From NCBI GenBank assembly GCA_000153745.1, contig DS022282.1:478027-542026 (forward strand): 64,000 bases of DNA, in the 5' to 3' direction. Within the stretch, counting starts at the first letter, position 1, and the number at the start of each line of letters is the position of its first letter. The position numbers and the translations under genes are program-made. Source of the DNA: Rhodobacterales bacterium HTCC2255 (GTDB lineage Bacteria; Pseudomonadota; Alphaproteobacteria; Rhodobacterales; Rhodobacteraceae). Positions 4,912-57,920 of the stretch are shown here, one piece after another. The notes below the pieces were generated by a model. It ran no database searches. It was not told the DNA's origin and was given only the letters and a program-made list of their open reading frames with translations.

Positions 4912-4916
4912 AAAGA

Positions 4917-6541: not shown

Positions 6542-6695
6542 TCCTACAATCCTTTCAAATATAAAGTTAATAATTGCATATAAATCAGTGCGTTAATAGA
6601 TTTAATATATTGTAGCTTTACTGATCATCTAATAGTTTGAATAATGACAATAAACCTAGGAAATATATTTATTTTGGAAAAAGAAACATATCATC

Positions 6696-8072: not shown

Positions 8073-8083
8073 TCATATTTAAG

Positions 8084-9238: not shown

Positions 9239-9259
9239 ATATATTTCCTTTTATTATAC

Positions 9260-10411: not shown

Positions 10412-10476
10412 GCTATATTTCTAATTTAAGAGTAAGATATACTTATGTACTAATACATTTTAATTGATATGAAACA

Positions 10477-38155: not shown

Positions 38156-39136
38156 CTATTTTTTATATTGTTTAAAGTTTCTTCTATTACGGTTTAATAT
38201 GTGCTCTCCTGCTGTAATTTTCTCAAATTTATTTGGATTTTGAGAGAAGTCACTAGGATTTATTATAGTTTGGCTGGAAGGATCACAAAATATCGGAATG
38301 GAATACCGAGCACCTTCATTTCGATTTATCACACGATGCTTTGTCGAAACCAAATAACCATTTGTCCATCGCTCTAATAAGTCACCAATGTTACAAACAA
38401 AACTATTTTCTATAGGTGGCGCCTCAATCCATTCATCATCTTTGTTCAAAACTTGAAGACCGCCCTGCATATCTTGAAGTAAAATGGTTAAAACTCCAAA
38501 GTCTGTATGCGGGGAAGCACCAAAACGTTGTTCATTGAGATCGTTAAATTTCATTGGAGGATAGTAAACTAATTGACCTCTGCCCAATGGTTTCTTGTAG
38601 GCAAGTTCAAAAAAATCTTTAGGTTTTCCTAATCCATAAGCCAAAGCACTTAAAACAGACTTACTAAGATCAATTACAGCGTTATAATAAGGTAATACAT
38701 CACTCCTTAAGAATGGCGCAACATTATCTGGCCATTGGTTTGGGAAGACCATAGGTACTCCTGAAATAACATCTTGATCATCAGCATCAACATCCCATCC
38801 CCAAAAAAATACTTCTTTTGCATCATGTGTTTTTGCCCCTTCTAATTGCGCCATGCCTTGGCCCATCCATCCACGTTGATTAACATCTACTTCGATGGAT
38901 GATTTTGCATCTAAAGGAAGCTCAAAAAACCTTTTAGATGCATTAAAAGCTTGCGAAATTAATTCTGGTGAAATCCCATGACCTTTTATATAAAAAAAAC
39001 CTATTGATCTTGCAATGTGAACAAGTTCAATAGCAGTTTTTTCAAAACCATCTTTTGTGTGAATTTCTGAAATATCGACAACCGGTATCTGTTCAAAACT
39101 TGTAGATTTTGCCGATGCAAAGTCATTATTTTTCAT
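38156..39136 (-). CDS. 2-oxoglutarate/Fe(II) oxygenase, isopenicillin N synthase-like
   Basis: A 326-aa non-haem iron oxygenase. An N-terminal DIOX_N region (PVVDISEI, then GFFYIKGHGI) precedes the iron facial triad H210-x-D212 (SPHTDFG) and H267 (STKHRVIN), with R277 (RYSIP) as the 2-oxoglutarate anchor. It is the last gene of a run with an Asp/Glu-type racemase and a TRAP transporter, 11 bp after the racemase gene. It probably hydroxylates, desaturates or demethylates the imported compound; the substrate is unknown. A second family member lies at 56982. Confidence 0.87.
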   Translation of the reverse strand: MKNNDFASAKSTSFEQIPVVDISEIHTKDGFEKTAIELVHIARSIGFFYIKGHGISPELISQAFNASKRFFELPLDAKSSIEVDVNQRGWMGQGMAQLEGAKTHDAKEVFFWGWDVDADDQDVISGVPMVFPNQWPDNVAPFLRSDVLPYYNAVIDLSKSVLSALAYGLGKPKDFFELAYKKPLGRGQLVYYPPMKFNDLNEQRFGASPHTDFGVLTILLQDMQGGLQVLNKDDEWIEAPPIENSFVCNIGDLLERWTNGYLVSTKHRVINRNEGARYSIPIFCDPSSQTIINPSDFSQNPNKFEKITAGEHILNRNRRNFKQYKK

Positions 39137-39831: not shown

Positions 39832-41139
39832 TTAATTTCGCGATCGAATGTTTTCAGGCAACCAAGTCGCAAGCTCTGGGAATACCACTAGAATTACAAC
39901 CATCAACAACATCAAACCAACCATTGGGATAGCAGTTTTTGCGATGTAACCAATCTCATGTTTAGTCATGCCTTGCAGAACAAATAGGTTAAACCCAATT
40001 GGAGGAGTAACTTGTGCAGTTTCAATAACCACAACAAGGAATATACCAAACCAAATCACATCAATGCCAGCGGCCCGGATCATTGGCTCTACGATTGCCA
40101 TAGTGAGAACAACAGATGACAACCCATCCATAAACATGCCCAAAATTAAATAGAACACTGTCAGCACGGCGATCAATGCGATAGGTGATAAATTATACCC
40201 TTCGATCAGTTCTGCCATTGCACGTGGCAATCCAGTGAACCCCATTGAAAGCGATAGAAATGCCGCCCCCATCAGGATCAATGCAATCATTGCTGAAGTG
40301 CGTGTAGCACCCATCAAACTCGTTGAAAAAGTTTTCCAATTTAATGATCCCTGAAAAGCAGATAGTGTAAGTGCACCTACAACACCAACTGCAGCAGCCT
40401 CTGTTGCAGTTGCGTAACCTGTGTACATTGAACCAATAACGACAAATACTAAGCCCATTACAGGCAACAAAAACATGCTTTCTTTCATCATCTGGCCAAA
40501 AGACATCGCAGGTTCAGGCTTTGGGCGTGGACCTTTTGTCGTAAAGTGCCAAAAAACGATATAGGCCATAAATAACCCAGACAGAACCAACCCAGGGAAT
40601 ATACCCGCCATAAAGAGTTTAGTAATACTTTCGTTGATAGATACCCCGTAGACAATCAATGTGAGAGATGGTGGTATCATCAAGCCCAAGGTAGCCGCAC
40701 CAGCCAATGTACCAATGATCATATGCTCAGGATAACCCCGTGAGCGTAGCTCTGGGATCGACATTTTACCAACCATATTCAAAGTGGCTGCAGAAGACCC
40801 TGAAACAGCCGCAAAAATGGTACAGCCTGCAATGTTTGTATGTAATAACCCACCTGGTAAGAACCGCAACCAGGGTGCAAGTCCACGAAATAGATCTTGT
40901 GACAATCGAGTTCTAAATAATATCTCACCCATCCAAATAAATAGAGGGAGCGCAGTTAATGTCCAACTACTTGCGCCAGTCCAAATAGTTGTAATCATTG
41001 CATCACCTGCAGGACGAGATGTGAATAACTCCATTCCAACCCAAGCAACACCCATTAGGGCCAAACCTACCCAGACAGAACTACCAAGCAGTAAGAATAA
41101 TACAAAAAGAAAAATAAATATTGCATAGAGTTCGGTCAT
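39832..41139 (-). CDS. dctM: TRAP transporter large permease (DctM)
   Basis: A 435-aa membrane protein with about twelve hydrophobic segments that forms the ion-coupled transport channel. Family hallmarks are LPLFIWMGEILFRTRLS, GSSAATLNMVGKMSIPELRSRGYP, and the C-terminal TPPIGFNLFVLQGMT. It overlaps dctQ by 4 bp (ATGA). Confidence 0.92.
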   Translation of the reverse strand: MTELYAIFIFLFVLFLLLGSSVWVGLALMGVAWVGMELFTSRPAGDAMITTIWTGASSWTLTALPLFIWMGEILFRTRLSQDLFRGLAPWLRFLPGGLLHTNIAGCTIFAAVSGSSAATLNMVGKMSIPELRSRGYPEHMIIGTLAGAATLGLMIPPSLTLIVYGVSINESITKLFMAGIFPGLVLSGLFMAYIVFWHFTTKGPRPKPEPAMSFGQMMKESMFLLPVMGLVFVVIGSMYTGYATATEAAAVGVVGALTLSAFQGSLNWKTFSTSLMGATRTSAMIALILMGAAFLSLSMGFTGLPRAMAELIEGYNLSPIALIAVLTVFYLILGMFMDGLSSVVLTMAIVEPMIRAAGIDVIWFGIFLVVVIETAQVTPPIGFNLFVLQGMTKHEIGYIAKTAIPMVGLMLLMVVILVVFPELATWLPENIRSRN

Positions 41140-41849
41140 TCGACGGTCTCACTTTTAATGCTAGTGACTTTATTAATTAACAGTCGATAAAGATTATCCC
41201 ACACAGCAATTGCCAAAAGTATTGTACCAATAGACATTGCAATTTGTGGCAACCAAACAGGTGTATAAACCATGTCTGAACTAGAACTTGCCCATAACTC
41301 TAACCAATTCCATGGCCATGTACCAAATGTTGCAACCACAGTCAAAACCCATTCAGGAACCTGATCTAAACCTTGGGTTCTATCATTTAGCATCTCTGAA
41401 AAGAAATTTGTTTTTACCGCGTAACGCGCAAAATATGTTGCAGTTATTGCAGAAATTAACATCGCGAACGCGTCTAACCAGTAGCGCAAAAAATCATTCA
41501 TATTTAAAAAAATAGAAACACGGATGTGAGCGCCGTGGTTTAAGGTATAAGCTAGCGCAAAGAATGAGGTGCAAGCCATTGCATACCCTGCAAATTCTGT
41601 GCCCCCGGGAAACACCGTACCTGTCCACCTTGAAACCATTTGACCAACGATTAAACAAAGTATTATTGCCATAAAGCTTGCTGCAATTACACCAGAAATT
41701 TTATAGATTGGATCTAATACACGCCAAACAGGCGTTATAATTCTTCGTGCAATATTTCTGTTATAAAGGCAAAAAAGAGCAAACAAGCTTGGTGCAATAA
41801 ATAACCAAAACCAAAGAGGAAGACCCAAAATGGGCTGCCAATCACGCAT
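41136..41849 (-). CDS. dctQ: TRAP transporter small permease (DctQ)
   Basis: A 237-aa membrane protein, longer than most DctQ proteins (about 160-200 aa). It has an extra N-terminal hydrophobic segment before the conserved region with WTGTVFPGGTEFAGYAMA, then LNHGAHIRVSIFL. It connects the binding protein with DctM. Located 57 bp after dctP, separated by a hairpin, and coupled to dctM. Confidence 0.88.
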   Translation of the reverse strand: MRDWQPILGLPLWFWLFIAPSLFALFCLYNRNIARRIITPVWRVLDPIYKISGVIAASFMAIILCLIVGQMVSRWTGTVFPGGTEFAGYAMACTSFFALAYTLNHGAHIRVSIFLNMNDFLRYWLDAFAMLISAITATYFARYAVKTNFFSEMLNDRTQGLDQVPEWVLTVVATFGTWPWNWLELWASSSSDMVYTPVWLPQIAMSIGTILLAIAVWDNLYRLLINKVTSIKSETVE

Positions 41850-41870
41850 ATGTTAATGTCCCGAATAAAT

Positions 41871-41894
41871 AGGCCCTATCAATTGATAGGGCCT
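41871..41894 (-). terminator. intercistronic hairpin between dctP and dctQ
   Basis: AGGCCCTATC-AATT-GATAGGGCCT is a perfect 10-bp stem with a 4-nt loop, 12 bp after the dctP stop. On the coding strand no T-run follows, so it probably protects the dctP transcript end rather than terminates fully. Confidence 0.72.
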
Positions 41895-41906
41895 TAACTT
41901 TGGTTT

Positions 41907-42887
41907 TTAATTAGCCATCGCTTTGTAATTATCAATGATTGCTTGACCATCAGAACCTGCTGCTGACAACCAATCAGCTGTCATTTTAGTGCCAATTGCT
42001 TCCAACTCAGCTAAGAAATCTAAGCTTGCATCTTCAACGGACATGCCATTTGCAGATAATTGTTCAAAGTACCAATTTGCCAATTCAGCAGATTTTGCAG
42101 AACATGCTGCGCCTGTTTCATCAGCAGCTTTTTGGACATTGGCTTTAGTATCAGCTCCTAAACCATCCCAAATACCCTTGTTTACAATAACATAATTACG
42201 CGGCAACCATGCATTAACTTTGTAATAATGCGTCAAAGATTCCCAAACTTTACGATCGTATCCTGTTGAACCAGAAGAAATGAAGCTTTCTGCAACGCCT
42301 GTTGCTAATGCTTGTGACAATTCTGCAGCTTCAACTTGTACTGGAACCATACCTAACTCTTCTGCAAATGTAGCAGTTGCAGAATTATATGACCGGAATT
42401 TAATACCTTGCGTGTCCGCAGAAGAATTTACAGCTTTTTTGAAGTAAAACCCCTGTCCTGGCCAAGGGCAAGTATATAGTGCCACAAGATTTAAATCAGA
42501 TAATTGAGAATTAACTTTATCTTTAGCTGCTGCCCATAGCTTATCATTAGCTTCATAAGTAGTTGCTAAAAAAGGGAGATTGTCCCAACCTAGTAGTGGA
42601 GCTTCATTTGCATGCGCTGACATGAAGCGTTCACCAATTGGAGCTTGGCCTGTTTGTACTGCTCGCTTAATTTCTCCACCTTTAAATAATGAACCACCTG
42701 GATGAACTGTTATGTTTATGTCACCACCAGTGTAATCACGAACTTTATCAGCAAAAATTACGCCCATTTCTGAATGGAAATTGCTTGCTGAGTATGCCAT
42801 AGGCATATCCCAATTTTCTGCAATAGCCGTACCTGCAGCCAAAACACCCGCGACTGATACAGCAATCATTTTTGTATATTTTTTCAT
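41907..42887 (-). CDS. dctP: TRAP transporter periplasmic binding protein (DctP)
   Basis: A 326-aa DctP-family receptor. A signal peptide ends near GTAIAEN, then the typical region FADKVRDYTGGDINITVHPGGSLFKG, and the substrate-arginine segment GIKFRSYNSATATF, where the conserved arginine contacts a carboxylate. The ligand is therefore likely an organic or amino acid. It lies 38 bp downstream of a DadA-like gene and heads the dctPQM set. Confidence 0.9.
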   Translation of the reverse strand: MKKYTKMIAVSVAGVLAAGTAIAENWDMPMAYSASNFHSEMGVIFADKVRDYTGGDINITVHPGGSLFKGGEIKRAVQTGQAPIGERFMSAHANEAPLLGWDNLPFLATTYEANDKLWAAAKDKVNSQLSDLNLVALYTCPWPGQGFYFKKAVNSSADTQGIKFRSYNSATATFAEELGMVPVQVEAAELSQALATGVAESFISSGSTGYDRKVWESLTHYYKVNAWLPRNYVIVNKGIWDGLGADTKANVQKAADETGAACSAKSAELANWYFEQLSANGMSVEDASLDFLAELEAIGTKMTADWLSAAGSDGQAIIDNYKAMAN

Positions 42888-42925: not shown

Positions 42926-44164
42926 TCACATGTAACGATTTGGATTAAATTCGCTTAAATCAATATTTGGTTTTTTTTGATCTATAAGATCTGCAAGTAT
43001 ACGGCCAGTTTTTGCGCCTCCTGTCAAGCCAACGTGCTGATGCCCAAAGCCAGTTAGAACATTATCATATTTATTTACTCGCCCAATTATAGGCAAACTA
43101 TTGGCGGTAGTTGGCCGATGCCCAAGCCATTCATCTAAGCGATCATATCTTATTTCAGGGAATAATTTAGCAGCATTAGATTTTAATAGTTCAACCGGCG
43201 CTTTACTGGCCACTGCATTCAAACCACCAAACTCAACAACCCCAGCCAATCGAATGCGACCGTCCATGGGTGTAACGACAAACTTCCCAGATGCTACCAT
43301 AATGGGTGCTTTTGGCATAATAGATGGATTAACTAACTCAATGTGATATCCACGTTCACTTTCAAATGGAACAGACAACCCAAGTTGTTTAGCAATATCT
43401 CCAGACCAAGGACCCAGAGTAAAAATAATATGATCTGCCAAGATATCTTCGCCGTCAGTCTTTACGCCAATGAGGCTTCTTCCATTTTCAATTAAGCCCG
43501 TGACACTAGACTTAATAAAAGTTCCACCATTTTTTTCAAAATGCTGAGCTAATTTTTTTATATAAGCTCCAGGATCACTTATTTTACCATGATTTTTGTT
43601 AGCAACGACTACCTCAAATTTATTTTTGTAAATATTATCAAGTTTCTCAAATTCATCTTTATTAAGAACTTTAAAAGATATACCGTTTTTTTTACGGACA
43701 TCCCATGCAAATGCATCTGCATCAAAAGCAGCTTTAGTTTCGTATCCAAAATAATAATCATCATTTGTGATATATTTTTCTGCACCTGTTCCATCTGCCA
43801 ACGCACGATGTTGTTCAACTGTGTCGTAAAGCAATTTTGACATTGCCTTTGCATAAAGTTTTACATGATTTGAATTTGCATGAGACAGATATTTTATTAA
43901 AAAAGGAAAAACTTTAGGCAGATATTTCCATCGTACAAAAAGTGGTGCGTTTGGGGCTAAAATCATCTTTGGAATTTTAGCTAATAAACCAGGAGTTGTA
44001 ATTGGTATAATAGATCCAGCAGCTAAAACGCCAGCATTTCCATATGATGTACCTGAAGCTGGTCCTTCACGATCGATCAAAATAACTTCGTGGCCAGCAC
44101 GTTGCAACCAAATAGCACTTGAAACTCCATTAATGCCTGCGCCAGCAACAACTACTTTTGCCAT
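42926..44164 (-). CDS. FAD-dependent D-amino acid dehydrogenase (DadA-like)
   Basis: A 412-aa DAO-family flavoenzyme. FAD-binding VVVAGAGINGVSSAIWLQRAG at the N-terminus, GTSYGNAGVL as the DadA-type second motif, and near the C-terminus WLGHRPTTANSLPIIGR and GHQHVGLTGGAKTG. DadA oxidises D-amino acids to 2-oxo acids and passes electrons to the respiratory chain; close relatives oxidise D-hydroxyproline. Its position directly upstream of a TRAP transporter and a racemase supports catabolism of an imported D- or cyclic amino acid. Confidence 0.86.
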   Translation of the reverse strand: MAKVVVAGAGINGVSSAIWLQRAGHEVILIDREGPASGTSYGNAGVLAAGSIIPITTPGLLAKIPKMILAPNAPLFVRWKYLPKVFPFLIKYLSHANSNHVKLYAKAMSKLLYDTVEQHRALADGTGAEKYITNDDYYFGYETKAAFDADAFAWDVRKKNGISFKVLNKDEFEKLDNIYKNKFEVVVANKNHGKISDPGAYIKKLAQHFEKNGGTFIKSSVTGLIENGRSLIGVKTDGEDILADHIIFTLGPWSGDIAKQLGLSVPFESERGYHIELVNPSIMPKAPIMVASGKFVVTPMDGRIRLAGVVEFGGLNAVASKAPVELLKSNAAKLFPEIRYDRLDEWLGHRPTTANSLPIIGRVNKYDNVLTGFGHQHVGLTGGAKTGRILADLIDQKKPNIDLSEFNPNRYM

Positions 44165-44227: not shown

Positions 44228-44602
44228 CTACGCATTCCTTTGCTTATAGTAAGTGTCTTTGTGAACAATCATTCCATCTTTAAAAGTTAAAATATCAACA
44301 CTTAGATATTCTTCAGTGGTCCCATCTTTATGTTTGGCGGTTCGACGATATTCACAATAAGCCTTATTCGCAACAATGCCACATGCCAATGTTTCCCAAT
44401 GAACATTGTCAACTTTTTCAAAAAGACCTGAAAAAACTCCTCGGATCACATCTGCACCTTGGAAACGAACACCATGTTCTTCAGTGCCAACTGCATGATC
44501 AAATATTGCGTTGGGTGCAAAATATTGCATTACCTCATCAATATCATTTGCATTAAATGCGTCTCCAACAGCATCTACCATTTTGCGTGTTAGCTCTTTC
44601 AT
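44228..44602 (-). CDS. SnoaL-like / NTF2-fold protein
   Basis: A 124-aa single-domain protein with an alpha+beta-barrel pattern typical of the SnoaL/NTF2-like group: FNANDIDEVMQYFAPNAIFDH at residues 17-37, and a later DGTTEEYLSVDILTFKDGMI. Such proteins serve as small cyclases, isomerases, dehydratases or binding proteins. It overlaps the upstream hydrolase gene by 4 bp (ATGA), so they are co-translated. The function is unknown. Confidence 0.78.
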   Translation of the reverse strand: MKELTRKMVDAVGDAFNANDIDEVMQYFAPNAIFDHAVGTEEHGVRFQGADVIRGVFSGLFEKVDNVHWETLACGIVANKAYCEYRRTAKHKDGTTEEYLSVDILTFKDGMIVHKDTYYKQRNA

Positions 44603-45495
44603 CTATTTGTCCTTTCTAGGCCAAGAATGGCACATATTTTATTGAAGAAAATACTACCCGGATCAGCCAGTACATTTAATTCGTCAAAATGGTCTACATT
44701 TGGAACAACATACATATCGATCTGTCTTTCGGAAGTATTAAAACTATTCACATACATTTGTGATTGGCGATGAAACTCAGTCGTTTCAGCACCACCTACA
44801 ACGACCAATTGTTGCGCATCAGTAGAAGGCGGATGATTAGTCATTGGGCTTTCATGATCTGCTTCTTCAATATCCATTTTAAGATTTGCGTTAAGAGCCG
44901 ACGTCAAGCGAACCGGTTCCAAATAACTAAGTGGCGAAACAGGAATTCCAGCTTTTATAATATCCAATGGAAATGCTGGGTCTCGAGTTGGCCAATCAGT
45001 AGCCATCATCATTTGTGTTAAATGTCCCCCAGCAGAATGCCCCATGACACATATCCTATCACGGTTAATACCTAGTATGTTATTATTGCTCCAGATAAAA
45101 CTAATGGCCTCTCGAAGCTCTTCTGAAATACGCGTCATACTAATATTTGGGCAAAGGTCATAACCTACAACGATAACATTCACACCGCGATTAACAAATG
45201 GTGTCGCCAAAAAGCTATAAATAGATTTATCACCACGTTGCCAATAACCACCATGTATCCATATTAAAGTCGGTGCTTTATTATCCCCACATCGAAACAC
45301 GTCCAGCTTTTGCTTGTCTCCATCAGCATATCGAACATCCAATATGCAATCCAAATTATCACGCGCTATTTGACTTTCAGCGATCCATTTTGGAATTACA
45401 GTTTCTTCGTAGTCTGGCCGACCTGCTCGCAAATTGTATTGTGCATCAAACCATTCAGGTGAATTTCCTTCATGAAATTTTAAGTAATTTGTCAT
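44599..45495 (-). CDS. alpha/beta hydrolase, arylformamidase (kynurenine formamidase)-like
   Basis: A 298-aa serine hydrolase. The oxyanion motif HGGYW at residues 81-85 is diagnostic of the kynurenine-formamidase/carboxylesterase group; the nucleophile is S154 in GHSAGGHL, and the catalytic histidine is in VPNVDHFDELN near the C-terminus. It probably hydrolyses an amide, formamide or ester. Nothing from tryptophan breakdown is nearby, so the substrate is likely different. Co-translated with the SnoaL-like gene. Confidence 0.83.
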   Translation of the reverse strand: MTNYLKFHEGNSPEWFDAQYNLRAGRPDYEETVIPKWIAESQIARDNLDCILDVRYADGDKQKLDVFRCGDNKAPTLIWIHGGYWQRGDKSIYSFLATPFVNRGVNVIVVGYDLCPNISMTRISEELREAISFIWSNNNILGINRDRICVMGHSAGGHLTQMMMATDWPTRDPAFPLDIIKAGIPVSPLSYLEPVRLTSALNANLKMDIEEADHESPMTNHPPSTDAQQLVVVGGAETTEFHRQSQMYVNSFNTSERQIDMYVVPNVDHFDELNVLADPGSIFFNKICAILGLERTNR

Positions 45496-45561
45496 GATTG
45501 ATCCTCTATTAAAATTTTATAAAAAAAGTGACTATAGAAGACCGATAGTTGATTTGTTTTG

Positions 45562-46239
45562 TCATGTTATTCCTTCTGACTCACAGGCTTTTTCAAGTGC
45601 AGCCCAATCGGTAGGATTCTCACCAAAATGACGCATGACATTTTTGCGGTAAGCTGGCCTTTCAGATAATCTTTGATACCAAGCCTCAACATTAGGCAGT
45701 TTTGGTCGGTCAACTTTAATATTAAAATATCGATAAACAATACAACCCAGAGGAATATCACCCATCGTGAACTTGTCACCACAAACGTAAGCTTGGTTTG
45801 ACAAATGTTGATCGAGAATAGTTAGTGCTTCATGTGCTTCATCACGTAAGCGTGTAATTTTTACTATATCACGCTCTGCTGGTTCAGTGCGTACCGTAGC
45901 AAAAAACAAATAAATAACAGGACCAAACGCTTTACTCGCAGACCACTCCATCCATTGATCTGCTATTGCTTTTACTTGAGGATCTGATGGTAATAGTGAC
46001 CCTTTTCCATACTTCTCAGATAAATAACGGATAATGGATAGGCTTTCCCATAATGCAAATTCACCATCTTGAATGGCTGGTATCATACGATTGGGATTAA
46101 TTTTTGCATACTGATCAGTATCAAGCTTGCCAAAGCTACCACCCGCCAGCATTAAATCATATTTTAAACCTAATTCATTTAGTGCCCAAATAACTGGTAT
46201 GACGTTTGAAGAATAAGGTCGCCCCCATACTTTAAGCAT
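45562..46239 (-). CDS. glutathione S-transferase family protein
   Basis: A 225-aa cytosolic GST. An N-terminal thioredoxin-like domain (LKVWGRPYSSNVIPVIWAL, then NPNRMIPAIQDGEFALWESLSI with the cis-proline and the ESxxI gamma-glutamyl contact) precedes a helical C-terminal domain. It overlaps the LLM monooxygenase gene by 8 bp, so the two are co-translated, suggesting that glutathione adds to or reduces a reactive product of the monooxygenase. Confidence 0.88.
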   Translation of the reverse strand: MLKVWGRPYSSNVIPVIWALNELGLKYDLMLAGGSFGKLDTDQYAKINPNRMIPAIQDGEFALWESLSIIRYLSEKYGKGSLLPSDPQVKAIADQWMEWSASKAFGPVIYLFFATVRTEPAERDIVKITRLRDEAHEALTILDQHLSNQAYVCGDKFTMGDIPLGCIVYRYFNIKVDRPKLPNVEAWYQRLSERPAYRKNVMRHFGENPTDWAALEKACESEGIT

Positions 46240-47422
46240 TAATATCTTCCCTCTTTTGAGCTATAGATTGAGTTCCAAAACGTGGTACTACACTTTCGAA
46301 TAAACGTTTCCAACTCGCAAGAATTTTCTCGTATGGAACTCCAGTATATTGCTGCATAAGCATTAAATGATCTAAGCCAATAGTTTCTTGCTTTTCAGCA
46401 AATCTATCAGCAACATAGTCTGCATCTCCCACCACAATAATTCCACGCTTATTTAAAAAGTCGAACCAGTCCATTTTATCGTCTTCAGGTGTCATTTCTT
46501 CACCAATGTCTAGATATCCTCGCTTAGTCCATTCACCGGCAGGTCGAGACCCCCCAAGGAATTCATAATATGCATTAATAGCCGGCCGAATAGTATCGAT
46601 AGCTTCCTGCATTGTTTCGCCAACATAGAATGAGGTACATACTCCCACCCCTTCTCCTAATTCAACTTCTCTATTTGAACTTTTTGCTAGTGCGTCACGG
46701 TATGTTTCCCAACAAGACAGAGTAGCCTTAGGGCCTGCAGACATGGAGATAACACCCCAACCTTTTTCACCGGCTAGTTTAAAAGTAGGTGGGGCATTAG
46801 ACATTAGCCACACAGGGGGATGTTTGTCTGTGTAGGGCCGAGGGTGAATATACATGGCCTTATATTCACCGTTTTCATCATGATATCTGGGATCTAAAGG
46901 TTCAAAAAATCGGTTTTTTTCTTGCCAACCTGGCACAGGAAACTCCCAAAATTCACCCTTATGGGTAAAAACTTCATTGTTCCAAGCTTTTAATATAATT
47001 TCCAGATTTTCTTGATATAGCCGCATGACCTTATCATTATTCCTTCGATCTGCATCAGGATTAAATTGTATTGTAGAACGTTCATTTATCCCTTTAGCAA
47101 CACCAAAATCTACTCTTCCCAATGTCATATTATCAAGCATTGCAACATCTTCAGCCACACGAATAGGATGCCAGTCTGGCAAAACTATAGGTGCAGTACC
47201 TACTCGTAATTTTTCGCAATGAGCTGCAATATGAGTTGCCATTTGTATTGGATTTGGTGGCGCATTCATGTAGCCATTATGTGCAAAATGGTGCTCAGTA
47301 AACCATGCAGTCGTAAAGCCAGCCTGCTCAGCCAAAGTGCACTGTTCCTTTATCATTTCTAATACTTGTGGCCATGGTTTTGTTTCACCAGGGCTAAAAT
47401 TTGCAATTATATCAAATCTCAT
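46232..47422 (-). CDS. LLM-class (luciferase-like) flavin-dependent monooxygenase
   Basis: A 396-aa TIM-barrel monooxygenase that would use FMNH2 and O2. AEQAGFTTAWFTEHHFAHNGYMNAPP, LRVGTAPIVLPDWHPIRVAEDVAMLD and TLGRVDFGVAKG are hallmark luciferase-family segments. A GDADYVADRFAE segment marks the C-terminus. Members oxidise thioethers, sulfonates, amines or aromatic ketones; the sequence does not decide. It heads a four-gene minus-strand module, divergent from an XRE-cupin regulator across a long perfect inverted repeat. Confidence 0.87.
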   Translation of the reverse strand: MRFDIIANFSPGETKPWPQVLEMIKEQCTLAEQAGFTTAWFTEHHFAHNGYMNAPPNPIQMATHIAAHCEKLRVGTAPIVLPDWHPIRVAEDVAMLDNMTLGRVDFGVAKGINERSTIQFNPDADRRNNDKVMRLYQENLEIILKAWNNEVFTHKGEFWEFPVPGWQEKNRFFEPLDPRYHDENGEYKAMYIHPRPYTDKHPPVWLMSNAPPTFKLAGEKGWGVISMSAGPKATLSCWETYRDALAKSSNREVELGEGVGVCTSFYVGETMQEAIDTIRPAINAYYEFLGGSRPAGEWTKRGYLDIGEEMTPEDDKMDWFDFLNKRGIIVVGDADYVADRFAEKQETIGLDHLMLMQQYTGVPYEKILASWKRLFESVVPRFGTQSIAQKREDINA

Positions 47423-47439
47423 GATTAAATCGTAGATCC

Positions 47440-47474
47440 AGTTAGTTGAATTTTATTATCAAATTCAACTAACT
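47440..47474. promoter_or_regulatory. long perfect inverted repeat, probable operator of the XRE-cupin regulator
   Basis: AGTTAGTTGAATTT (47440-47453) and AAATTCAACTAACT (47461-47474) are perfect 14-bp arms around a 7-bp TATTATC spacer. It lies in the 98-bp gap between the starts of the LLM monooxygenase and XRE-cupin genes, where a terminator would make no sense, so an operator shared by both is likely. Confidence 0.75.
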
Positions 47475-47520
47475 AGATATTTAGGTGGAAAGTCAAGAAA
47501 GTTTATTTTAGAATTGTGGT

Positions 47521-48126
47521 ATGACTAATTCTGACAAAATTCGCCTTGGTAGTGAAATACGAGAGGTTCGAAAAGCACGCGGGCTGACACTTAATAATCT
47601 TAGTTCAATGTTAAGTTGCTCGACAGCCTATCTTAGCCGTATAGAAAGAGGAACGGCACAAGTATCAGAGATCTTAATTGTAGAAATTAGTACGGCTTTA
47701 AATATAGAAAAAAACTGGTTTTTTCCGAATAAATTAGGGGTTGGCCCGTTAGAAATAGCTCATGTAGTTAGGTCACAAAACCGTCGCCCATTATCAGACA
47801 TGTATACCAGGTCAGAAGCTGAACTTGGATTTAGAGACGAACTCCTTTCCAGTACTTTATCAGGCCAATGTTACCTAATTATGTCACACTTTCCACCAGG
47901 TGTAGGAGAACCACCATCACCGCAAGAAGGATTTGTTTATGAGGGAGAGCAACACGCGATTGTAATTTCCGGAGAAGTCGAATTAAAATTAGGAGATGAA
48001 AAAATTGTATTACGAAAGGGTGATAGTTTATCATATCCAACAATGATCGCACATCGTTTTTGCAATAGAACTGACAAAGAAGCGACTGTGGTCTGGGCCA
48101 TGTCACCAGTAAGAATTAGCTGGTGA
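47521..48126 (+). CDS. XRE-family regulator with C-terminal cupin
   Basis: A 201-aa regulator: a helix-turn-helix of the XRE type (residues about 10-65, ARGLTLNNLSSMLSCSTAYLSRIERG) joined to a cupin sensor domain (about 125-200, including HAIVISGEVELKLGDEKIVLRKGDSLSYP). Such proteins, like PuuR, bind a small metabolite in the cupin. It is divergent from the monooxygenase module and separated by a perfect inverted repeat, so it most likely controls that module and itself. Confidence 0.88.
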   Translation: MTNSDKIRLGSEIREVRKARGLTLNNLSSMLSCSTAYLSRIERGTAQVSEILIVEISTALNIEKNWFFPNKLGVGPLEIAHVVRSQNRRPLSDMYTRSEAELGFRDELLSSTLSGQCYLIMSHFPPGVGEPPSPQEGFVYEGEQHAIVISGEVELKLGDEKIVLRKGDSLSYPTMIAHRFCNRTDKEATVVWAMSPVRISW

Positions 48127-48172: not shown

Positions 48173-48862
48173 CTAAACACCTAAATATTTGTCAGCAATA
48201 TTAGTTGTTAGATTACTTGGAATTCCACTCCAAACAGTTTCACCACGCTCTAAGATAAAACAATTATCTGACAAAGCTAATAATTCTTTCAAAGTCTTAT
48301 CTACAATTAGAATTGATATACCCTCATCTTTTAATTTGTGTATTGCTTCCCAAATTTCTTGACGGATTACAGGAGCCAAACCTTCTGTAGCTTCATCTAA
48401 AATTAATAGTTTAGGATTAGTCATAAGGGCGCGCGCAATAACTAACATTTGTTGCTCTCCACCTGAAAGGGTTGAAGCAGATTGTTTTGACCGTTCCTCT
48501 AATTTAGGAAATAAATTATATACTTGTTGTAGACCCCAAGGCCCACTGGTTGAAGCTGCCGTTAAGTTCTCAAGAACACTTAAATTTGGAAAAACGCGGC
48601 GTCCTTCAGGGACCAAGCCTATGCCTTTGCGCGCAATATTATGTGATGGGATTGAGGTTATAGAAGTTCCCGCAAACTCAATTTTTCCTTCAACACGAGA
48701 CATCATTCCAAGTATTGAAGATATAGTAGTTGATTTACCCATACCATTCCTTCCCATAAGTGAAATCACTTGTCCCTCTTCAACAGTCAGACCTACATTA
48801 TACAGAACTTGAGTATTTTCGTACCATGCCTTCAATCCTTCAACATTTAGAAGTATGCTCAT
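48173..48862 (-). CDS. livF: branched-chain amino acid-type ABC transporter ATPase LivF
   Basis: A 229-aa ATPase of the HAAT family: Walker A GRNGMGKST, signature LSGGEQQMLV, Walker B LLILDEATEGLAP, typical of LivF. The GMGKST variant is the usual LivF form. It overlaps livG by 4 bp and ends the operon. Confidence 0.9.
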   Translation of the reverse strand: MSILLNVEGLKAWYENTQVLYNVGLTVEEGQVISLMGRNGMGKSTTISSILGMMSRVEGKIEFAGTSITSIPSHNIARKGIGLVPEGRRVFPNLSVLENLTAASTSGPWGLQQVYNLFPKLEERSKQSASTLSGGEQQMLVIARALMTNPKLLILDEATEGLAPVIRQEIWEAIHKLKDEGISILIVDKTLKELLALSDNCFILERGETVWSGIPSNLTTNIADKYLGV

Positions 48863-49611
48863 AGGTCTTCACTCCCAAGGTAAGCTTCTTTGACGTTTGC
48901 ATTACTTCGAATTTCATCCACAGTTCCAGTGGCAATAATACGTCCATAAACTAAAACTGAAATACGATCTGCTAGTGCAAAAATGGCATCCATATCATGT
49001 TCGATAAGTAATATTGGCGCCCTACTCTTTAATTTTGCCAATTGTTTCGTCATGACTTTTGATCCTGCTGCTCCCAATCCAGCCATTGGTTCATCAAGTA
49101 AAAATACTTTTGGTTCCAAAGCCAACGCCATTGAGATCTCTAACTTACGCCTTTCACCATGACTCAGTTCTGATGCAAGAATAAACATACGTAGTTTCAG
49201 ATCTACTTGATCCAAATAACCATGCGCAGCATTAATTAATTCTTGGTTTTTGGATACTGGTTTCCAAAATTTAAAAGTCTGCCCTAGATTTCCCTGAATG
49301 GCCAATATTACGTTTTCGAGCACAGTGATGCTTGGAATTATAGAAGAAACTTGGAAACTACGTGCCAGCCCCATTTTAGCACGTTGAAAAACTGGTTGAT
49401 TTGATATTTCATTTTCTCCAAGAACAATTTTTCCACTGTCTTGCTTAATTTCACCTGAGATTTGCTTTATCAATGTAGATTTTCCGGCGCCATTGGGACC
49501 AATAAGCCCATGTATTTCGTCTTGATATAAATCAATTGATACATCTTCATTTGCAATTACTGCACCAAATTTTTTTGATAAATTTTGAATAGAGAGAATT
49601 GGGCTAACCAT
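48859..49611 (-). CDS. livG: branched-chain amino acid-type ABC transporter ATPase LivG
   Basis: A 250-aa ATPase: Walker A GPNGAGKST, signature LSHGERRKLEI, Walker B VFLLDEPMAGLG, and the H-loop in LIEHDMDAIF. The SHGERR signature and the MAGLG segment are the LivG hallmark. It overlaps livM by 8 bp and livF by 4 bp. Confidence 0.9.
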   Translation of the reverse strand: MVSPILSIQNLSKKFGAVIANEDVSIDLYQDEIHGLIGPNGAGKSTLIKQISGEIKQDSGKIVLGENEISNQPVFQRAKMGLARSFQVSSIIPSITVLENVILAIQGNLGQTFKFWKPVSKNQELINAAHGYLDQVDLKLRMFILASELSHGERRKLEISMALALEPKVFLLDEPMAGLGAAGSKVMTKQLAKLKSRAPILLIEHDMDAIFALADRISVLVYGRIIATGTVDEIRSNANVKEAYLGSEDL

Positions 49612-50584
49612 TACGGCGCTCCTTAGCTATCATCCCTATAATTCCACCTTTTGCAAACAAGACTACAATAATTAAGATAAATCCTAACCAAAACTGCCAA
49701 TTTTCTGTGATGCCCCCAAGAAATTGTTCTAAGATAATAAATAATGCTGCACCAACCAAAGGCCCAAATAACCTTGCAGTACCACCTAGGATTACAAAGA
49801 CCATTATCTCACCTGATGTATGCCAACTTAGCACTGACGGACTAACGAAACGATTGAGGTCTGTATAAAGCGCTCCAGCAAGGCCAGTGATTGCTCCAGA
49901 AATTACAAAAGCGATTAACTGAACTTTAATGGGTTCTATTCCAACCGCTGCAACTCTTTCAGGGTTTTGTTTTGCTGATTGTAATGCGAGTCCAAAATTT
50001 GAGTTTACTATTCGAGAAATTATAAAAAGAACAAATATTAATAAAACAAAACAAATGCTAAAAAAGCTAAACCCATCCATTGTATTCAAGCCTGGAAAAT
50101 TATTTCTTAAATAAACTGATAATCCATCTTCACCCCCATATGCAGGCCAGCTAATTGCAAAATAATATACCATCTGTGCAAATGCCAATGTAATCATTAT
50201 GAAGTAAACACCACTAGTCCGCAAACATAGCATTCCAATTAAAAACGCAAAGCCTCCAGAGATTAACATTGCTAGAGGTAAAATAATAAGCATCTGAGTT
50301 GTACCCTCTATAATAAAAGGCCATTCAATAATTGGGTAATAATTCAGTGCATGACTAGCCAATATACCCGAAACATATCCTCCGATGCCAAAAAAAGCAG
50401 CATGCCCAAAGGAAACAAATCCTCCATAACCCAACACTAAGTTTAATCCGGCACCAGCAATTGCTAATATCACTACTTTAGTAGCAAGAGTTATATAGTA
50501 AGGTTCATCAAGGATAAGACCTAGAAAAGGAACACTAAGAAGAAGTATGATACAGATTATATTAAAGTAATTCTCTTTAATCAT
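49604..50584 (-). CDS. livM: branched-chain amino acid-type ABC transporter permease LivM
   Basis: A 326-aa permease with about nine hydrophobic segments. GAGLNLVLGYGGFVSFGHAAFFGIGGYV is the LivM start region, and SAKQNPERVAAVGI is the coupling loop. It overlaps livH by 4 bp and livG by 8 bp. Confidence 0.9.
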   Translation of the reverse strand: MIKENYFNIICIILLLSVPFLGLILDEPYYITLATKVVILAIAGAGLNLVLGYGGFVSFGHAAFFGIGGYVSGILASHALNYYPIIEWPFIIEGTTQMLIILPLAMLISGGFAFLIGMLCLRTSGVYFIMITLAFAQMVYYFAISWPAYGGEDGLSVYLRNNFPGLNTMDGFSFFSICFVLLIFVLFIISRIVNSNFGLALQSAKQNPERVAAVGIEPIKVQLIAFVISGAITGLAGALYTDLNRFVSPSVLSWHTSGEIMVFVILGGTARLFGPLVGAALFIILEQFLGGITENWQFWLGFILIIVVLFAKGGIIGMIAKERRNG

Positions 50585-51504
50585 TTTGCATTATTCCCAA
50601 ATAAACCCGACGGCTTCCAAATCAAGACTGCTGCCATAAGAATATAAATCATCATTGATGATAAAGCTGATCCGATATCAGTTGCTGAAGATGGATTCAA
50701 AAATATCTTAAAAAATGATGGAAGCAAAAAACGACCCAATGTGTCAGTAAGCCCAACCAAAATAGCACCAACCAAAGCCCCTTTAATAGACCCAATACCA
50801 CCAATTACAATTACAACAAATGCCAATATGAGCACCGGTTCCCCCATTCCCACCTCAACTGACTGTATTGCTCCAACCATTGCACCAGCAAGGCCAGCTA
50901 ATGCTGCACCCAATGCGAAAACCAAAGTATATAATTTAGATATATCAACACCAAGCGCTGCAATCATCTCACGATCGCTTTCACCTGCTCTGATACGAAC
51001 TCCAAGTCTAGTTTTACTAATGAGTGAAAATAGTCCAACTGCAATAAGGATACCAACCACAATAATCATCATGCGATATTTAGAATATTCAATTCCTAAA
51101 GGTAAACTTAGAGTACCTGATAGAATTTCTGGAACATCCAAAAATAGGGGAAAAGCACCAAAAATCCAGCGCATTGCTTCTGAGAAAAGCAAAATTAATG
51201 CAAAAGTAGCCAGAACTTGATCCAAATGATCACGCTTATATAATCTTCGGATAATAACAATTTCTACAATAACACCAGCTATGGCTGCAGCCATTAAACT
51301 AGCGACTAAACCCAACCAAAACGATCCAGTCCAAGATGCAATTGCAGCAGCTGCAAAAGCTCCAATCATGTACAAAGAGCCATGAGCAAGATTAATTAGC
51401 CCCATGACACCAAAAACCAACGTCAATCCAGCTGACATTAAAAATAACATCACGCCAAACTGAAGCCCGTTTAAGACTTGCTCTAAAAATAAGCTGATGC
51501 TCAT
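50581..51504 (-). CDS. livH: branched-chain amino acid-type ABC transporter permease LivH
   Basis: A 307-aa permease with eight or so hydrophobic segments. GLQFGVMLFLMSAGLTLVFGVMGLINLAHGS and VIVIGGIGSIKGALVGAILVG are classic LivH segments, and GESDREMIAALGVDI is the coupling loop. It lies 51 bp after livK with a hairpin in the gap. Confidence 0.9.
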   Translation of the reverse strand: MSISLFLEQVLNGLQFGVMLFLMSAGLTLVFGVMGLINLAHGSLYMIGAFAAAAIASWTGSFWLGLVASLMAAAIAGVIVEIVIIRRLYKRDHLDQVLATFALILLFSEAMRWIFGAFPLFLDVPEILSGTLSLPLGIEYSKYRMMIIVVGILIAVGLFSLISKTRLGVRIRAGESDREMIAALGVDISKLYTLVFALGAALAGLAGAMVGAIQSVEVGMGEPVLILAFVVIVIGGIGSIKGALVGAILVGLTDTLGRFLLPSFFKIFLNPSSATDIGSALSSMMIYILMAAVLIWKPSGLFGNNAK

Positions 51505-51526
51505 AGGAAAATACCTAGTAAATCAA

Positions 51527-51545
51527 GTGGGCTAAAACAGCCCAC
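51527..51545 (-). terminator. intercistronic hairpin between livK and livH
   Basis: GTGGGCT-AAAAC-AGCCCAC forms a 7-bp GC-rich stem in the 51-bp gap after livK. No T-run follows on the coding strand, so it is probably a stabilising or partial-attenuation element. Confidence 0.6.
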
Positions 51546-51555
51546 CTGAATCTAA

Positions 51556-52689
51556 TTACATTTTACATTCGCTAACATAAGCGTTTGAACGATCTTTCAA
51601 TCCTGTGGCTACGATTTTATTTGTGAAAATATCACCTTCTTTGATAACCTCACGAACATAAATATCTTGGATTGGATGGTTGTTAGTATCGAAACTAAAA
51701 CTACCTCTCGTGGATGCAAAATCAGCTTTTTTCAGTGCCTTACGAAATGCATCTTGATCATTTACACTAGTAGTTTTTAAGGCAGATGCTAGAAGATTTG
51801 CTGTGTCGTAGCCTTGTGAAGCATACAATGAAGGCAATCTTCCATACTCAGCTTGAAAGTCTGCAACAAATTTAACGTTTGCGTCATTGTCCAAGTCTTT
51901 TGACCATTGAGATGTATTCTTCACACCCATTGCAGCTGCACCAACAGCTTGCAAGATACCTTGATCAAAAGAGAATGCAGGACCAACAACTGGCAGATCT
52001 ATGCCTGACTGTGCAAACTGCTTCATAAATCCAATACCCATGCCACCTGGTAAGAAGAAAAATACAGAATCTGCTCCTGATGCACGAATTTGTGCTATTT
52101 CAGCCGCATAATCTTTTTGACCTAACTTAGTATAAATTTCACCAGCCAATTCTCCCTCATAGAAGCGCTTGTATCCAGTCAAAGCATCTTTACCAGCAGG
52201 ATAGTTTGGAGCCATTATAAAAGAATTCTTATAGCCTTCAGAGTTTGCGTATCCGCCTGCAGCTTCATGCAAATTGTCATTTTGCCATGCCACATTAAAA
52301 TAATTCTTATGACATCCAGCACCAGCCAAAGCAGATGGGCCTGCATTTGGTGAAAGATAAATTTTTCCTTGATTTACTGCTGCTGGTACAACTGCCATAG
52401 CCAAGTTAGACCATATAATTCCAGTTAAAATATCAACTTTTTCAGATTGGATCATTTTATCCGCCAACTGCACTGCTATATCTGGCTTACGTTGATCATC
52501 TTCAATTACAACTTCAATGTCATTATTGCCTTTGAGCGCTAATAAGAAACCATCTCGGACATCAATTCCCAATCCAGATCCCCCACCAGATAATGTGGTG
52601 ATCATCCCGACCTTCGCTTTGTGATCATCTGCAAAAACCGGTAATGCAATAACAGCACTTAACGCAAACATACTTATCAGTTTTTTCAC
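51556..52689 (-). CDS. livK: branched-chain amino acid/amide-type periplasmic binding protein (LivK-like)
   Basis: A type I periplasmic binding protein of 377 aa. A signal peptide ends near LPVFADD; the mature protein begins KAKVGMITTLSGGGSGLGID, a LivK-like opening, and YLSPNAGPSALAGAGCHKNYF follows. The start is GTG at 52689, preceded by GGGAGGA at ideal spacing; a longer in-frame ATG would put that ribosome site inside the coding region. The ligand could be an amino acid, amide, urea or aromatic acid. Confidence 0.88.
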   Translation of the reverse strand: MKKLISMFALSAVIALPVFADDHKAKVGMITTLSGGGSGLGIDVRDGFLLALKGNNDIEVVIEDDQRKPDIAVQLADKMIQSEKVDILTGIIWSNLAMAVVPAAVNQGKIYLSPNAGPSALAGAGCHKNYFNVAWQNDNLHEAAGGYANSEGYKNSFIMAPNYPAGKDALTGYKRFYEGELAGEIYTKLGQKDYAAEIAQIRASGADSVFFFLPGGMGIGFMKQFAQSGIDLPVVGPAFSFDQGILQAVGAAAMGVKNTSQWSKDLDNDANVKFVADFQAEYGRLPSLYASQGYDTANLLASALKTTSVNDQDAFRKALKKADFASTRGSFSFDTNNHPIQDIYVREVIKEGDIFTNKIVATGLKDRSNAYVSECKM

Positions 52690-52763
52690 TTTTTGTTCCT
52701 CCCAAAACATATTTAATGCGGTCAATAATATCCGCATGATTAATAACGCTTTAATTATTCGTA

Positions 52764-56981: not shown

Positions 56982-57920
56982 ATGCCTGACTTTACTAAGA
57001 TTGCTATAATAGACCTTTCAAACCCTCATGATAGTGTCGTATCAAAATTTGCAGATGCATATTCCACAGCAGGATTTGCTTATATAAAAAACCATAGTGT
57101 TTCTCAATTACTTATTGATGAAACTTTTAAAGCTTCGAAAAATTTTCACAGATTGAATGAAGCAGAAAAGCGGACAATATTACTTGATAAAAACCATCGC
57201 GGATACATTCCAATAAACACCTCAACTGATGTTAATTCAAAACTTGCAGATGTAAAAAAACCAAATCAATCTAGCAGTTTCATGATGATGCGTGAAAGCG
57301 ATGAAAAACCAAATGAATATCTATCAGGCCCCAATCAGTGGCCTGATATTGTTGGTTTTCGTAATACGTTAACTGCTTACACAGAACAAATGTCCACCTT
57401 AGGAAAACGTCTCATCAGTATTGCTGCGGAAGCTTGCAATGCCAAACCCAATGAACTTACGCCGGCATTTAATTTACCTACTACATGGCTTAGATTATTG
57501 CACTATCCACCAAGTCCAATACTTAGCCCTGATGATTTATATGGTTCCGCACCACATACTGATTTTGGAGCACTTACACTTCTTGCACAAGATGGTATTG
57601 GAGGCCTACAAGTCCAAACGCCCCATGGTGATTGGATCGACGTCCCTAAAATTGATGGTACATTTGTGGTAAACGTTGGTGACATGCTCAACCGGTTATC
57701 TAACGGTTTACTTAAGTCTACGCCTCATCGAGTTATAAACCGCTCAGGAAAAGAGCGGTACTCAATTCCATTCTTCTTTGATCCACACGTCAATACAATC
57801 ATAAAACCTCTAAAAGGTACGGGTGATCCACAGTTTGAACCAATGCATTTTGGTGATTTTCTGCGATCTGAGCTTGGCGCAAGTTACGACAGCCACAAAA
57901 AATCAGCTAATCAAACATAA
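56982..57920 (+). CDS. 2-oxoglutarate/Fe(II) oxygenase, isopenicillin N synthase-like
   Basis: A 312-aa non-haem iron oxygenase. Iron ligands H192-x-D194 (APHTDFGAL) and H249 (STPHRVIN), and the 2-oxoglutarate anchor R259 (RYSIP). The core follows the 38156-39136 protein closely while the N-termini differ, so the two are paralogues. It lies 92 bp after the fused TRAP permease on the same strand and probably acts on the transported compound or uses imported 2-oxoglutarate. The product is unknown. Confidence 0.87.
   Translation: MPDFTKIAIIDLSNPHDSVVSKFADAYSTAGFAYIKNHSVSQLLIDETFKASKNFHRLNEAEKRTILLDKNHRGYIPINTSTDVNSKLADVKKPNQSSSFMMMRESDEKPNEYLSGPNQWPDIVGFRNTLTAYTEQMSTLGKRLISIAAEACNAKPNELTPAFNLPTTWLRLLHYPPSPILSPDDLYGSAPHTDFGALTLLAQDGIGGLQVQTPHGDWIDVPKIDGTFVVNVGDMLNRLSNGLLKSTPHRVINRSGKERYSIPFFFDPHVNTIIKPLKGTGDPQFEPMHFGDFLRSELGASYDSHKKSANQT

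Follow-up and report, generated by a model that had tools for sequence, protein, structure and literature searches.

The 64,000-nucleotide stretch analyzed here (hereafter the window; Rhodobacterales bacterium HTCC2255, assembly GCA_000153745.1, contig DS022282.1, positions 478,027 to 542,026) carries a conserved, catabolic-looking module of four minus-strand genes (44228-47422), which diverge from a gene encoding an XRE-cupin regulator. We tentatively read this module as a horizontally spread, self-contained two-component FMNH2-oxygenase cassette for one imported aromatic acid, likeliest an amino- or N-heteroaromatic acid of the tryptophan/kynurenine or picolinate type; the class of substrate is a guess that sequence comparisons support.

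Starting from the regulator, the operon encodes an LLM-class flavin monooxygenase with the bacterial-luciferase fold (396 residues, 46232-47422; PF00296), a glutathione S-transferase (GST; 225 residues, 45562-46239; Pfam GST_N/GST_C), an alpha/beta-hydrolase of the kynurenine-formamidase family (298 residues, 44599-45495; Pfam BD-FAE/Abhydrolase_3), and a SnoaL-like protein with the NTF2 fold (124 residues, 44228-44602; PF12680, 1e-14). The divergent gene (47521-48126, plus strand) encodes a protein of 201 residues with HTH_3 and Cupin_2 domains. The LLM and GST genes overlap by 8 bp, and the hydrolase and SnoaL genes by 4 bp. An original prediction, made from the letters of this DNA, had described these five genes, with their positions, families, divergent orientation and both overlaps, as the best candidate in the window for an undescribed catabolic system; gene calls and Pfam agree with that description. 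As shown below, the comparison of genomes bore out a conserved, catabolic-looking unit, but the prediction had overlooked a flavin reductase, an operator and a linked LIV transporter.

Linkage and distribution of the module

A scan of the named genomes with the LLM protein yielded 47 loci, 42 of which (L003-L044) contain close orthologues; the other five (L045-L049, LLM 25-32% identical) were excluded from the counts. The LLM, GST and hydrolase genes were found together in 40 of the 42 loci, and all five genes in 30, comprising 23 with a six-gene set that includes a flavin reductase and 7 without this gene. In the remaining loci we observed LLM, GST and hydrolase (five loci), these three plus SnoaL (four), hydrolase, LLM, SnoaL and XRE (one), LLM and XRE (one), and, in L025, the set minus XRE with only a remnant of the flavin reductase. 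Accordingly, GST is present in 40 loci and the XRE-cupin gene in 32. Some loci are short contigs, so these gene absences are upper limits and contig ends may explain some of them. A SnoaL match was not found, even at E 1, in L035, L036, L038 and L039, all of which do carry LLM, GST and hydrolase. The sequence of L033 stops after 28 residues of a SnoaL match, so the gene is cut there rather than missing.

Outside the window, the 8-bp overlap is kept in 38 of the 40 related loci that have both LLM and GST, and the 4-bp overlap in 19 of 36; these overlaps are therefore inherited features of one unit. Pairwise distances between the proteins were also correlated (r 0.64-0.87) in the 31 copies with all five proteins, window included, and for each of the ten protein pairs none of 500 permutations reached the observed value, although common host descent also adds to r. 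In contrast to the module itself, the flanking genes vary from locus to locus, and no gene family beyond the module is common to most flanks. Unlinking of the genes in relatives, which the original prediction had named as an outcome that would speak against it, was not seen; rather, most close relatives have no set at all.

The distribution of the module is sparse. At E ≤ 1e-100, the LLM was detected in the window's own genome and in 1 of 100 relatives, in 3 of 394 genomes of the family apart from its own, and in 13 of 54 genomes of the Ruegeria group. In a search of the class (385 genomes, E ≤ 1e-40), an orthologue with 86% identity was present in 1 of the 384 other genomes, and the next LLM after the orthologues was only 36% identical. 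The orthologues are 76-94% identical over their full length in 41 loci, and the lowest value, 67%, corresponds to L090, from another genus of the family. The record titles of the loci include Ruegeria, Marivita, Litoreibacter, Octadecabacter, Sulfitobacter, Planktomarina, Hoeflea, Kiloniellaceae and SAR116, as well as gammaproteobacterial names such as Granulosicoccaceae. Since the Ruegeria rows are closely related, the locus counts overstate the number of independent events; besides, L003 and contig C177 of genome G027 were treated as one contig, as were L039 and L091, and the members of each pair are not independent. Viral contigs were scanned by pattern, an approach limited to close relatives, and no relative turned up; all 960 matching plasmid records were less than 60% identical. 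On these grounds a phage or plasmid gene was discarded. We read this transfer-like occurrence as that of a chromosomal cassette that apparently moves as a block.

Two further observations concern individual loci. In L037, a Granulosicoccus metagenome-assembled genome (MAG), the LLM and XRE genes are kept and neither GST nor hydrolase lies nearby; this genome encodes a LivJ that shares 78% identity with the window protein, with the other LIV genes not beside it (L102). In L090 and in L038/L039, a beta-hydroxyacid dehydrogenase gene precedes LLM; since these proteins are only 27% alike, it was rejected as a part of the module.

A candidate operator accompanies the regulator

The 98-bp gap between the XRE-cupin and LLM genes contains a candidate operator, AGTTGAATT-N9-AATTCAACT (47444-47470), recognized by its conservation. 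It is the only match within the window at up to 3 mismatches, and the only exact copy in the genome. The motif GTTGA-N15-TCAAC occurs with the same spacing in 29 of the 33 XRE-bearing gaps (window included), 15 of which carry two copies 28 bp apart, and it is missing from the XRE-bearing loci L009, L029, L030 and L037. A first-order Markov control, allowing spacers of 13-18, predicts 0.025 occurrences in 33 gaps. The motif was found in none of the 9 loci without XRE, for which the 150 bases upstream of LLM were searched. The operator therefore tracks the presence of XRE, tying the regulator to the operon. When the genome was scanned at up to 3 mismatches, 8 places were obtained versus 5 for the reversed control; for this reason, only the exact site is trusted as a member of the regulon. 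One of the weaker operator-like places is close to a flavin reductase gene.

A flavin reductase was probably part of the ancestral set

In 23 of the 42 loci a flavin reductase gene lies between GST and hydrolase, and the window has none. The copy of L016, the one scanned, belongs to PF01613. The reading frame is open in all 23 copies; a script test passed 22 of them, and in the other, L010, an open stretch of 159 residues runs up to the only later stop, which is terminal. Two loci retain remnants of the gene: L025 (at about 4775-5090) has a fragment with an internal deletion, and in the GST-hydrolase gap of L028 the start of the flavin reductase is fused to the apparent tail of the same protein. 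The intact copies together with these deletion remnants indicate that the flavin reductase was probably ancestral and that the line leading to the window probably lost it. Consequently, the composition of the ancestral set points to what was probably a two-component FMNH2 oxygenase.

The remnants were found in a SAR116 record (L025) and a Marinovum MAG (L028). The HTCC2255 assembly has four other Flavin_Reduct genes: one beside an LLM gene in each of two separate operons (L055 and L067, described below), one in L088, and one on the doubtful contig C2. Compared with four copies of the flavin reductase of the module, those of L055 and L067 show only 31-41% identity.

Properties of the encoded enzymes

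None of the five window proteins scored above the cut-off of any NCBIfam model. The enzymes were examined through samples of aligned copies (21 for LLM, 21 for GST, 20 for hydrolase and 18 for SnoaL). The hydrolases of L012 and L029 and the LLM of L036 were left out, as the stretch chosen for each contains an in-frame stop, and the L031 hydrolase was trimmed at its end.

The LLM protein matches PF00296 (7.4e-45) over residues 1-347. Its AlphaFold model (pTM 0.76, mean pLDDT 72) matched 2i7g, 6ket, 7bip, luciferase and diketocamphane monooxygenase with Z values of 27-30, and falls with the luciferase/diketocamphane monooxygenase/RslO1/PuwE group, within which the Z values are close together; this match of a predicted fold does not name a substrate. 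In the VIA-align list for the model, no title names a trigonelline enzyme; this is uninformative either way. Distant LLM proteins (28-36% identical, L081-L086) were considered as a hint to the substrate and discarded, as no relative of GST, hydrolase or SnoaL adjoins them at E 1e-3.

In GST, the segment WGRPYSSNVIP, which includes S10/S11, is invariant in the 21 copies, as are P54 and E65-S66; we take S10/S11, the cis-proline P54 and E65-S66 to be glutathione-site residues. The nearest solved structure is 6nv6 (1e-61 by profile), and 4kdu is also close. The hydrolase shows invariant HGGYWQ and GHSAGGH (Ser154) motifs and an invariant His269 in 20 copies, and aligns with the kynurenine formamidase 4e11 (4e-27) including the oxyanion motif, the nucleophile and the DHFD histidine region; the top ranks of the fold search were 9n8r, 2pbl and 4e15. 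From these features the hydrolase is assigned to the kynurenine-formamidase family, which we count in favor of the aromatic-acid reading. The SnoaL protein scored 55.3 bits against PF12680 (cut-off 27), and its Asp35-His36, Asp103 and Asp116 are invariant in 18 copies; its relatives in the PDB are weak. An aldehyde dehydrogenase was found neither in the window module nor as a family common to most loci.

A LIV-type transporter is linked to the module in two arrangements

On the opposite side of XRE, the window carries the minus-strand genes of a LIV-type ABC transporter: LivF (48173-48862), LivG (48859-49611), LivM (49604-50584), LivH (50581-51504) and the substrate-binding protein LivJ (393 residues, 51556-52737; Peripla_BP_6, 5e-74). 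In L090, LivJHMGF lies immediately downstream of LLM, GST, hydrolase and SnoaL; identity to the window proteins is 78% for LivJ and 51-66% for the LivF, LivG, LivM and LivH orthologues. L003 keeps LivF beside XRE at the edge of its contig. As the LIV genes (48173-52737) are linked in a second arrangement elsewhere, the unit is probably larger than the region 44228-48126 delimited by the original prediction, which had advised searching other genomes for the five-gene set and for linked transporters; both were found.

The nearest solved chains to LivJ are 4evq and 4ey3, which we take to be aromatic-acid binders. LivJ relatives with at least 62% identity were present in 19 of the 43 module-bearing genomes searched (a set that did not include the genome of L033), mostly unlinked to the module. 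We examined nine contexts chosen from these 19 genomes and 4 of 111 plasmid records. An aromatic coenzyme A (CoA) cluster adjoins the LivJ relative in 5 of the 13 contexts, all five among the nine from genomes. This cluster encodes relatives of a benzoate-CoA-ligase-family enzyme, of a 381-residue enzyme and of the salicylyl-CoA-5-hydroxylase/oxidoreductase equivalog (1290-1296 bits in the two scanned, cut-off 1078), a family that presumably includes the 2-aminobenzoyl-CoA monooxygenase/reductase. One of the five contexts also has a tryptophan 2,3-dioxygenase match (387.2 bits, just below the cut-off of 390.7) and a kynureninase (286 bits, cut-off 246). The roseobacter 2-aminobenzoyl-CoA (anthranilate) cluster thus resembles the window in its related LivJHMGF (LivJ 63-79% identical in the mature part, five loci), but it has a CoA ligase and a bifunctional monooxygenase/reductase, and the LLM module has neither. 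Taken together, the transporter contexts suggest an aromatic acid as ligand, possibly of tryptophan/kynurenine origin. A tree of 20 LivJ rows grouped the window, L093, L090 and the LivJ of the L037 genome with weak support (82/83), and it was not relied on.

Proposed pathway and alternative explanations

Under the reading that we favor, the XRE-cupin protein would bind GTTGA-N15-TCAAC and control its own gene and the operon, in whichever direction, until its cupin domain senses the substrate, presumably the aromatic acid that LivJHMGF would import. The LLM, using FMNH2 supplied by the flavin reductase (in the window's genome, from elsewhere), would insert one oxygen atom and cleave either a C-C bond or a bond of the ring; the product would carry an N-formyl or ester group next to a reactive unsaturated carbonyl. 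GST might then add glutathione to this carbonyl and isomerize it, the serine hydrolase of kynurenine-formamidase type would take off the formyl or acyl group, and the SnoaL protein could carry out a late isomerization or hydration. Since neither a dehydrogenase nor a CoA ligase belongs to the core set, the route would comprise one NADH-driven monooxygenation followed only by hydrolysis and isomerization. A more specific version, which we regard as very doubtful, is a dehydrogenase-free and CoA-free dismantling of an N-heteroaromatic acid by way of glutathione: after one FMNH2-dependent monooxygenation opens the ring, an unsaturated aldehyde would form a hemithioacetal, a double-bond shift by GST and SnoaL would convert it into a glutathione thioester, and the hydrolase would release the acid and formate, so that reducing the double bond would balance, within the route itself, the oxidation of the aldehyde.

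Several results weigh against an aromatic-acid cassette of this kind. Within Ruegeria, the transporter is only loosely associated with the module: genomes with a LivJ at least 74% identical number 7 of 13 with the module versus 13 of 41 without it. No copy of the operator precedes the LIV genes of the window. The nine LivJ contexts taken from genomes are all from genomes that carry the module, yet in each of them LivJ lies apart from it, so LivJ may serve the other pathway there; because these aromatic contexts lie away from the module, our estimate for the favored reading was lowered and that for a detoxification function was raised. The aromatic cluster was found in none of the four plasmid contexts, one of which (L111) shares only thioesterase, RidA and MarR genes, as at the end of that cluster. 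In another plasmid context, from Alisedimentitalea (L112), LivJHMGF is adjoined by genes for Rieske oxygenases, an XRE regulator, sarcosine-oxidase-like subunits and an MttB-like methyltransferase, which suggests that the substrate of some transporters in this family is N-methylated. Regarding the enzymes, the four loci without a SnoaL match indicate that SnoaL may be dispensable. The GST, a small protein beside ring-cleavage-type enzymes, resembles the maleylacetoacetate/maleylpyruvate isomerases in this setting and in a weak match to TIGR01262, but at 60 bits it is far under the cut-off of 171 and its closest solved structures are those given above. Likewise, the lipase 9n8r and the putative thioesterase 2pbl outrank the formamidase in both the fold and the profile comparison of the hydrolase.

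The leading named rival, which we nevertheless hold to be unlikely, is the operon for homarine (N-methylpicolinate) of Ferrer-Gonzalez et al. (2026; doi 10.1038/s41564-026-02313-7). According to this scheme, LLM and flavin reductase would open the pyridinium ring, the hydrolase would remove the N-formyl group, GST and SnoaL would isomerize the product to give N-methylglutamate and formate, and the adjacent DAO-type enzyme could demethylate N-methylglutamate; an N-methylglutamate dehydrogenase takes part in the homarine pathway according to one article (PMC13390433). The formulas balance, as homarine (C7H7NO2) plus one O and 3 H2O equals N-methylglutamate (C6H11NO4) plus formic acid (CH2O2), and therefore one monooxygenation without any dehydrogenase suffices, matching the composition of the module, which has a formamidase-family hydrolase and an adjoining amino-acid oxidase. 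The homarine operon, named homABCDER, reportedly consists of five enzymes and a regulator, a number that LLM, GST, flavin reductase, hydrolase and SnoaL plus XRE would also give; its distribution may likewise correspond to that of the module. However, another LLM operon of the same genome, L055, likewise has five enzymes and a regulator, and fits trigonelline or homarine chemistry at least as well. In addition, none of the 47 scan loci is titled Ruegeria pomeroyi, and the megaplasmid of this species has no copy above 60% identity; the species may still have the module, as its genome was not found among the 54 of the Ruegeria group (none has DNA nearly identical to the megaplasmid). This species rapidly draws down homarine, as reported in PMC12817926, and grows more poorly on it than on trigonelline, according to PMC8269262, where the TgnA/TgnB system is described as opening the trigonelline ring and is judged unlikely to act on homarine.

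The operon L055 (G000:C1:394000-410000, 5092-9885) encodes an AA_synth (DUF1185) protein, an alpha/beta-hydrolase, a flavin reductase, an LLM and an aldehyde dehydrogenase, with a divergent LysR-like gene upstream. The same enzyme types are grouped in L086, on a Leisingera methylohalidivorans plasmid (L113), and in L045, where the dehydrogenase gene lies on the opposite strand. Operons of this type are likely trigonelline- or homarine-type. The tgn operon includes an aldehyde dehydrogenase and a LysR regulator. The module, where it includes a flavin reductase, resembles it in that this gene shares an operon with those of an LLM oxygenase and an alpha/beta-hydrolase. The window set, however, has GST, SnoaL and XRE-cupin instead of the dehydrogenase and LysR, and its LLM shares only 22% identity with the LLM of the tgn-like L055.

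A route of the Baeyer-Villiger type, acting on an aromatic or alicyclic ketone, seems rather improbable to us; in it, the LLM would introduce oxygen adjacent to the ketone and so form an ester or lactone that the hydrolase opens, SnoaL would act as an epoxide-hydrolase-like enzyme or isomerase, and GST would guard against enones. The grouping of the LLM model with luciferase, 3,6-diketocamphane monooxygenase and RslO1 is consistent with this route, as is a lipase being the best solved match of the hydrolase. Nevertheless, the fold rank gives no substrate, given the narrow spread of Z values within the group; moreover, relatives of the linked transporter lie in aromatic-acid loci, and the set includes no alcohol or ketone dehydrogenase. 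Even less probable, in our judgment, is a detoxification cassette, in which oxygenation, conjugation with glutathione and hydrolysis would inactivate either an antimicrobial or an aromatic toxin from algae or animals. The self-contained character of the module, its sparse presence in mostly marine genera and the near-constant GST agree with such a function, but an ABC importer is linked to it in two arrangements, an amino-acid oxidase and a TRAP importer adjoin it in the lineage of the window, and the flanks lack a further common family. The thioethers and sulfonates that the original prediction had suggested for assays found no support, the indirect evidence pointing instead to aromatic carboxylates; sulfonates, thioethers and EDTA-like compounds were discarded because the SfnG and NtaA/DmoA models match weakly and no sulfur genes appear in the flanks read.

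Relation to described systems and significance

A search of open-licence PubMed Central text found no characterized LLM-GST-hydrolase-SnoaL catabolic cluster, in line with the original prediction, which had recognized no known pathway of this composition; the genes of the hom operon were not compared. The one paper in that text to name at least four of the five components concerns the biosynthesis of rishirilide in Streptomyces (PMC8093152) and does not appear to fit. The module is of an ordinary kind, a catabolic operon, with an unusual and, as far as the literature was searched, undescribed composition.

Because the cassette is well delimited, by the conserved overlaps, an operator of its own and, in some genomes, an attached importer, and is common to roseobacters, SAR116 and gammaproteobacterial records, its substrate is probably a widespread dissolved organic compound, the consumers of which cannot currently be recognized from genomes. 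Once the operon can be named, the LLM would serve as a marker gene in metagenomes, given identities of at least 67% and a clear gap down to the next LLM at 36%. If it is true that GST and hydrolase finish the pathway in place of a dehydrogenase, the module would represent new enzymology.

Neighboring genes and other observations

On the SnoaL side, the module of the window is followed by a gene for a FAD-dependent (DAO-type) amino-acid oxidoreductase (42926-44164, minus strand; PF01266, 2e-52) and by the genes of a TRAP transporter, DctM-DctQ-DctP (39832-42887, minus strand), assigned from gene calls and Pfam. Only in the window, L003 and L043 do these genes lie next to the module, which suggests a lineage-specific accessory and neighbor, respectively. 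The DctPQM proteins are 94-99% identical to the copies of L003 and L043, compared with 76-94% for neighboring genes, and at the DNA level the values are 87-91% versus 76-88%; this therefore looks more like strong purifying selection than recent transfer. The oxidoreductase and DctPQM may finish a product of the module, such as an amino acid or N-methyl amino acid, or may be unrelated neighbors. Two SoxB-like operons above the curated cut-off are present in the genome, one of which may encode N-methylglutamate dehydrogenase.

A third LLM gene of the genome, with a flavin reductase, lies in L067 (G000:C1:228000-242000, 4203-10579); judging from their translations, the other genes there presumably encode an aldo/keto reductase, a TRAP transporter and a divergent GntR-like regulator. 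In L045 (7135-9228), from an uncultured alphaproteobacterium, a fusion of a family III CoA-transferase and a flavin reductase was found beside LLM and AA_synth genes. Contig C2 of the assembly (L089, 65 kb) is a possible contamination (3.35% reported), and its gene orders look, in our estimation, gammaproteobacterial. Finally, the window contains two 2OG-Fe(II) oxygenases (DIOX_N; 38156-39136 and 56982-57920) near TRAP-type transporters, one of which adjoins a weak Asp/Glu-racemase match that falls below the Pfam cut-off.

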